From positions 1 to 33,201 of the forward strand of contig CACHDH010000004.1 in NCBI GenBank assembly GCA_902578515.1: 33,201 nt of DNA. Reading direction: 5' to 3'. Below, piece after piece: positions 103 through 2,563 of this stretch. Each line of letters begins with the position of its first letter. Position 1 is the first letter of the stretch. The position numbers and the translations under genes are program-made. The notes under the pieces were generated by a model. That model was given only the letters and a program-made list of their open reading frames with translations. It was not told the DNA's origin and made no database searches. The stretch is from an uncultured marine group I thaumarchaeote. GTDB lineage: Archaea > Thermoproteota > Nitrososphaeria > Nitrososphaerales > Nitrosopumilaceae.

Positions 103-756
103 TTATTCAGCTTCTACTTTTTCTTCTTTCTTCTCCTTCTTCGCTTCTACTTTTTCTTCTTTCTTCTCCTTCTTCGCTTCTACTTTTTCTTCACCTTCAT
201 CAACACCGCTTGCCTTTTTAAGATCTTCTTGTATCCATTCCTCTGCACCCAAAAATGGTTGTCTACATGTAATTCCTATCTTCCCCATCGTTGATGCTTT
301 ACCAAGTGATACAGCAGTAATTCTTGTTCTTATTGTTGAACCAATCTTTAATGTTCGACCACTTTGGTTTGCAAGTATAACACCAGATGCTATGTTGCTT
401 TTGAGATAATCATCCATAACCTGCGATAAGTGCAATAATGCATCAGTAGGACCAATTCTAACAAACGCGCCAAAATCAGTAATATCAACAAGTTCACCAT
501 AGATTATCTCTTGTAGTTTTGGGAAAAACGTTAATGCATCAAATGTTACACGATGGAACGTTCCCCCATCACCTGCAATTAATTTACCCATAGGTTCAAC
601 ATCAGCATCAAGTATCATTATGATATAACCAAGATCTGATTTTACCATACTTTCATATTTTGATTTGAGAATGTTGATTGCCGCTTTGTTCAACGACGTA
701 CCAAACAGATTAGGTGGTATCCTAACAATATCCTCTAGCGTGGAAACAGAAAACAC
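103..756 (-). CDS. rpo7: DNA-directed RNA polymerase subunit Rpo7 (RpoE') with a K/E-rich repeat tail
   Basis: MFSVSTLEDIVRIPPNLFG... plus S1-like domain (GELVDITDFGAFVRIGPTDALLHLSQV); GTG start; adjacent to Spt4. Confidence 0.92.
   Translation of the reverse strand: MFSVSTLEDIVRIPPNLFGTSLNKAAINILKSKYESMVKSDLGYIIMILDADVEPMGKLIAGDGGTFHRVTFDALTFFPKLQEIIYGELVDITDFGAFVRIGPTDALLHLSQVMDDYLKSNIASGVILANQSGRTLKIGSTIRTRITAVSLGKASTMGKIGITCRQPFLGAEEWIQEDLKKASGVDEGEEKVEAKKEKKEEKVEAKKEKKEEKVEAE
111..192 (-). repeat. 33-bp in-frame tandem repeat (two full copies 111-143 and 144-176 plus a 16-bp partial) in the Rpo7 C-terminal tail
   Basis: cttctactttttcttctttcttctccttcttcg repeated exactly; encodes EKVEAKKEKKE units. 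Confidence 0.95.
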
Positions 757-2000: not shown

Positions 2001-2498
2001 TTGCAACTACCTGATGATCTTCGTGATCAGCTCAAAAACCCACTAGGAAATTTAATCAGTGACAATGATCCAAACAAAGAAAATATCATAAAAAAAATAT
2101 CAACCGAATCAATTATAATCACAGTAGGCGATAGGACGACTGAAAATTTATTACAATTGGATATCAAACCGCAGATTCAAATCGTAGATGGTCTTGAAAA
2201 ACGCAATAAACGTACAGTACCTATTGATGATACAGTAAATACCAATCTTTCCTGCAGAAACCCACCTGGTGAAATAACTGATGAAAGTATACAAGTTATT
2301 CAAAAGGCATTTTCTAGTGAACCACCTGTTAGAATCATAATAGATGGAGAAGAAGATCTTCTTGTCATACCTGTATGTATTCATGCACCAGAAAATTCTA
2401 TCGTGATGTACGGTCAACCAAATGAGGGTTTGGTTATTGTTACAATCACGCCTGAAATACGAGCGAAGGTTCAAAAAATACTTGATGTAATGAATTAG
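2001..2498 (+). CDS. GTP-dependent dephospho-CoA kinase (DUF359 family)
   Basis: TTG start; VGDRTTENLL...QIVDGLEKR, NPPGEIT, VRIIIDGEEDLLVIPVCIHAPENSIVMYGQPNEGLVIV motifs of the DUF359 family. Confidence 0.85.
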   Translation: MQLPDDLRDQLKNPLGNLISDNDPNKENIIKKISTESIIITVGDRTTENLLQLDIKPQIQIVDGLEKRNKRTVPIDDTVNTNLSCRNPPGEITDESIQVIQKAFSSEPPVRIIIDGEEDLLVIPVCIHAPENSIVMYGQPNEGLVIVTITPEIRAKVQKILDVMN

Positions 2499-2563
2499 GG
2501 GTATGATGAGACGGTGGCTGTATGATTTATGATTACACTACTAAAACTCTGACCCTATTTTTT
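2496..2563 (+). ncRNA. Candidate archaeal C/D-box guide sRNA
   Basis: Terminal stem TAGGG (2496-2500)/CCCTA (2553-2557); C box ATGATGA 2503-2509; 12-nt spacer; degenerate D' ATGA 2522-2525; C' ATGATTA 2529-2535; 13-nt spacer; D box CTGA 2549-2552; T6 run follows. Confidence 0.55.

Follow-up and report, generated by a model that had tools for sequence, protein, structure and literature searches.

The stop codon of a dephospho-CoA kinase gene in a marine ammonia-oxidizing archaeon is followed by a series of short motifs reminiscent of a guide RNA, which raises the question of whether the locus encodes a C/D-box sRNA and, if so, which nucleotide that sRNA guides. We examined the locus in a window of 33,201 nucleotides, the whole stretch of DNA that was analyzed, which comes from a 58%-complete genome assembly. 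The kinase gene, encoding a DUF359 (PF04019) protein, lies on the plus strand (positions 2001 to 2498) with a Mrp-type ATPase gene upstream and a MoxR-type ATPase gene downstream, and its 3' end overlaps the sRNA. From stem to stem, the sRNA gene spans approximately positions 2496 to 2557 of the same strand and reads TAGGG-GT-ATGATGA-GACGGTGGCTGT-ATGA-TTT-ATGATTA-CACTACTAAAACT-CTGA-CCCTA, followed by a T6 run.

The arms of the closing stem, TAGGG (2496 to 2500) and CCCTA (2553 to 2557), form 5 bp, and the TAG stop codon of the kinase gene (2496 to 2498) begins the 5' arm. Inside the stem, the C box ATGATGA (2503 to 2509) is followed by the 12-nt D' guide GACGGTGGCTGT (2510 to 2521), the D' box ATGA (2522 to 2525), TTT (2526 to 2528), the C' box ATGATTA (2529 to 2535), the 13-nt D guide CACTACTAAAACT (2536 to 2548), and the D box CTGA (2549 to 2552), all on the plus strand. 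The locus therefore carries the features of the class: a terminal C box (RTGATGA) and D box (CTGA), a short closing stem, and internal D' and C' boxes. A sequence-only reading of the window had described an sRNA with this box order, a spacing of about 12 nt, and a 5' stem that uses the stop codon of the upstream gene, and all of these elements were found. The T6 run that it also listed is present (plus strand, 2558 to 2563) but is not a conserved part of the sRNA, as relatives differ there.

The complete C-D'-C'-D pattern with a 5-bp stem occurs once in the 33-kb window. Among relatives, pairing between the two arms of a stem averaged 4.54 bp, a small excess over the mean of 4.33 bp (standard deviation, 0.10) obtained with shuffled partners. 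The fold of the whole RNA was uninformative (z, -1.38), as expected for C/D RNAs. Just 3' of the sRNA lies a perfect short hairpin, GTTTCTA-TTTA-TAGAAAC (2570 to 2587), that is unconserved in relatives. Elsewhere in the window (110 to 175), two perfect 33-nt direct repeats fall in the Lys/Glu-rich C-terminal tail of an RpoE/Rpb7-like ORF (103 to 756, minus strand), and a strict-pattern search of the genome for other C/D RNAs yielded only two further weak candidates; matches to a loose C/D pattern lie at G000:C2:27984-28032 and G000:C23:6851-6905.

A DNA search recovered matches to the sRNA in 34 of 61 genomes of relatives. With a sequence profile built from 21 sRNA sequences, the count was 183 out of 250 genomes at the order level and 222 out of 300 at the class level. 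The matches listed from the order search came from four families, Nitrosopumilaceae, Nitrosocaldaceae, and Nitrososphaeraceae included. The conserved guide block was present in Nitrosopumilus, Nitrosarchaeum, Nitrosopelagicus, Nitrosotenuis, Cenarchaeum, Nitrosocaldus, Nitrosothermus, and Nitrosocosmicus, among others, so the sRNA spans the ammonia-oxidizing archaea. Boxes were conserved in relatives with the same synteny, a check that the sequence-only reading had proposed. We consider it highly likely that the locus in the window is a real C/D sRNA gene.

Several other matches departed from this pattern. In one genome the C box, D' guide, and D' box occur again at another place (G026:C26, L062, C box near 1553), followed by a different sequence without a clear C' box; it is a candidate partial duplicate or re-used guide half. 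In family f19 of the same class, three loci (L124, L126, and L127) hold C/D-like RNAs with the guide GGCGGTGGCTGC, in which C528 is also paired, and a TTGA D' box. No kinase or Mrp gene was found adjoining these three loci, and the same target is predicted for them from another locus. Two more profile matches in f19 (L128 and L131) resemble other C/D sRNAs, with different guides on the same ATGATGA / ATGA / ATGATTA / CTGA scaffold. Crenarchaeal matches to the C-guide-D' pattern, with CTGA as D', were seen in Sulfolobales Acd1 (L206, 116 to 137) and Ignisphaera (L231, 1825 to 1846); no clear C' or D boxes were seen in either, and both matches are possibly due to chance because bacterial records match the pattern too.

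Conservation was concentrated in one half of the RNA. Compared with the window, the stretch from the C box through the D' box was 100% identical within the genus, 95% identical in other genera of the family, and 86 to 87% identical in other families. In the neighboring coding stretch identity fell to 47 to 54% in distant groups, in the D guide it fell to 42 to 52%, and the downstream stretch stood at 43 to 48% throughout. Because the boxes and the D' guide are nearly invariant while their flanks diverge to about 45 to 50% identity, selection acts on the boxes and the D' guide.

We then compared 148 distinct sequences from a search anchored on GGYGGCT. The D' box was ATGA in 140 of them; the sequence-only reading had seen ATGA and called it degenerate, but this form is normal for the family. 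Guide positions 3 to 9 were invariant except for one U-to-C change that converts a G:U to a G-C pair, an invariance inflated there by the anchoring. Most changes at position 10 replaced C with U, turning G-C into G:U. At position 11 an unpaired A was replaced by G in 22 of the 148 sequences, which adds a pair with C528. Changes at positions 7, 10, and 11 thus mostly kept or gained pairing. Profile matches obtained without the anchor gave the same picture, the exceptions being A at position 2 in three genomes and A at position 10 in two genomes, both small and from a single genus; a mismatch at position 2 or 10 occurs in a few genomes.

Within the mature rRNA of its own genome, the best site for the D' guide is the 16S segment CAGCCGCCG, aligned to Escherichia coli positions 519 to 527 in helix 18. 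Guide positions 2 to 10, counted from D', would pair with this segment and position 5 faces C522, the predicted Cm522. C522 sits in the 530 loop (helix 18) of the decoding center. The duplex spans the N+5 nucleotide and has 9 bp, including one internal G:U. It thus reaches the 9 bp that the sequence-only reading had asked of a complementary rRNA or tRNA site, but it falls short of nine consecutive Watson-Crick pairs, the general requirement in PMC4644070. In this single genome the match is not significant, as shuffled guides reach its score in 6 to 13% of trials (P, 0.06 to 0.13). Another match of the D' guide, at 25 points, was discarded, as it falls over 600 bases upstream of the 16S gene.

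A comparative scan, in which the guide of each of 24 genomes was scored against its own rRNA at homologous sites with family weighting, placed helix 18 as the top rRNA site; 1 of 1,000 permutations of the guide columns reached its score at any site (P about 0.001). By family, helix 18 came first in f1, f2, and f8 and not in f3, for which two genomes were used. All genomes in which the target sequence was covered have it in identical form. On this evidence, the D' guide probably targets 16S C522.

The main alternative, to which we give a smaller but appreciable chance, is that the sRNA is real and its D' guide addresses a different molecule (a tRNA, 5S rRNA, or an mRNA), or serves mainly as a folding chaperone of helix 18 and not in methylation. 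For about a third of surveyed archaeal C/D sRNAs no rRNA match is significant, and others have been proposed to act as chaperones (PMC4644070, PMC7994747); the nonsignificant match in the single genome fits this reading as well. Against it stands the comparative ranking of helix 18 under permutation. Moreover, nothing convincing was seen among the tRNAs found in the incomplete genome, the best D' match scoring 20.5 versus 23.5 for helix 18 in a scan that had 5S rRNA and mRNAs outside its scope.

The D guide, which the sequence-only reading had likewise proposed to align with rRNA and tRNA, yielded no convincing target. Its best site in the single genome, in 16S rRNA, pairs 11 of 13 positions with an internal mismatch and is no better than those of shuffled guides (P, 0.33). 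Among relatives the D guide varies in sequence and length, and its A-run ranges from 3 to 5, which shifts its register. The D guide of Nitrososphaeraceae contains a TACCA block opposite UGGUA at 16S 1240 to 1244, and in one member (G043) the D guide forms nine Watson-Crick pairs plus wobbles around 1236 to 1245, with N+5 at U1240; the D guide of this family may thus pair around U1240. In the genus of the window and elsewhere the match to 1236 to 1245 is partial or out of register, so this site is a lead only. We regard the weakly conserved D guide of the window as an orphan or a decaying, drifting guide.

In almost every ammonia-oxidizing archaeon tested, the sRNA sits beside the same gene. 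At the loci inspected across families, Mrp and the kinase precede it, even where kinase identity drops to 33 to 45%. A location at the kinase 3' end would also suit a regulatory element in the 3' untranslated region, namely, an L7Ae-binding k-turn that controls the kinase mRNA and gives rise to no free guide RNA; L7Ae binding to k-turns in archaeal mRNAs is known from a RIP-Seq study (PMC5539422). A k-turn needs the C/D motif only, however, and the D' guide is conserved as much as the boxes. Further, in Nitrososphaeraceae the sRNA lies further from the kinase end, and in one genome (G036, L030) it is on the strand opposite the kinase, convergent and tail to tail, so that it cannot ride on the kinase mRNA there. 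We consider such an element very unlikely. Chance resemblance in A+T-rich intergenic DNA is less likely still, for although single boxes are short and common, the C-D'-C'-D pattern appeared in none of 300 dinucleotide-preserving shuffles and is conserved across several families.

We are accordingly left with a genuine methylation guide RNA of the archaeal C/D-box class, a reading in which our confidence is very high, with a D' guide predicted to address 16S C522 and with probable cotranscription with the Mrp/kinase mRNA. In this class, the C/D and C'/D' motifs are the binding sites of L7Ae, Nop5, and fibrillarin. The sRNA would probably be made as part of a longer Mrp/dephospho-CoA kinase transcript, extending from its 3' end, and then released; L7Ae, Nop5, and fibrillarin would assemble on it; D' guide positions 2 to 10 would base-pair with 16S 519 to 527; and fibrillarin would add a 2'-O-methyl group to the ribose that the N+5 rule selects, which is that of C522 in E. 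coli numbering. Intact fibrillarin and Nop5 were not found in the 58%-complete genome of the window, and the two genes are adjacent in a genome of the same genus (G001).

That ammonia-oxidizing archaea share this guide nearly letter for letter suggests strong selection for a modification in the decoding center. From the near-invariance of this guide, it seems on balance reasonable to expect that 2'-O-methyl-C522 is common to mesophilic and thermophilic ammonia-oxidizing archaea, supplied by one locus beside the dephospho-CoA kinase gene whose second guide is free to drift. The prediction names one concrete nucleotide and can be tested. In archaea, the targets of C/D sRNAs are usually poorly conserved, with no position common to all seven species surveyed in 2015 (PMC7994747).

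The sequence-only reading had called the sRNA unannotated, and in Rfam 15 no family reached its gathering threshold on the interval. Subthreshold matches were to SNORD113 (28.6 bits), sR20 (21.3 bits), and three others, all of them C/D-box families. We found nothing in the literature joining "box sRNA" with Nitrosopumilus or ammonia-oxidizing archaea, a search whose scope excluded most subscription papers and all supplementary tables, where an earlier prediction is possible; the available passages joining the term with Thaumarchaeota do not treat this sRNA. The novelty lies in a family that Rfam 15 lacks, whose predicted site ammonia-oxidizing archaea have in common, and in an sRNA annotation that Rfam 15 does not supply for their genomes. 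Stop codon overlap and helix 18 targeting are already known for archaeal C/D sRNAs.

Comparison with known systems places the sRNA within its class. SNORD113 (RF00181) and sR20 (RF01140) share its C/D-box architecture and match weakly over the interval, but both fall under their gathering thresholds and the likeness is mostly in the boxes. Among archaeal C/D genes, 25% carry the stop codon of the upstream gene and only about a fifth have a promoter-like motif of their own (PMC7994747). In almost half of the 3'-overlapping genes the stop codon lies in the C box (Breuer et al. 2021, PMC7994747), whereas here it lies in the stem, and the kinase genes of other families stop short of the sRNA. Helix 18 is a described hotspot: across seven surveyed species, 13 positions were predicted there, spread over five of the species, and the mesophile in the survey had none (PMC4644070). 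The closest counterparts, Tte sR114, Pca sR28, and Sac sR115 (Dennis et al. 2015, PMC4644070), resemble this sRNA in architecture, guide lengths, and predicted target helix. Those RNAs guide E. coli positions A535 and G515 in hyperthermophilic crenarchaea, whereas here the predicted target is C522, the D' box is ATGA, and the sRNA occupies a fixed locus in ammonia-oxidizing archaea, both mesophilic and thermophilic.
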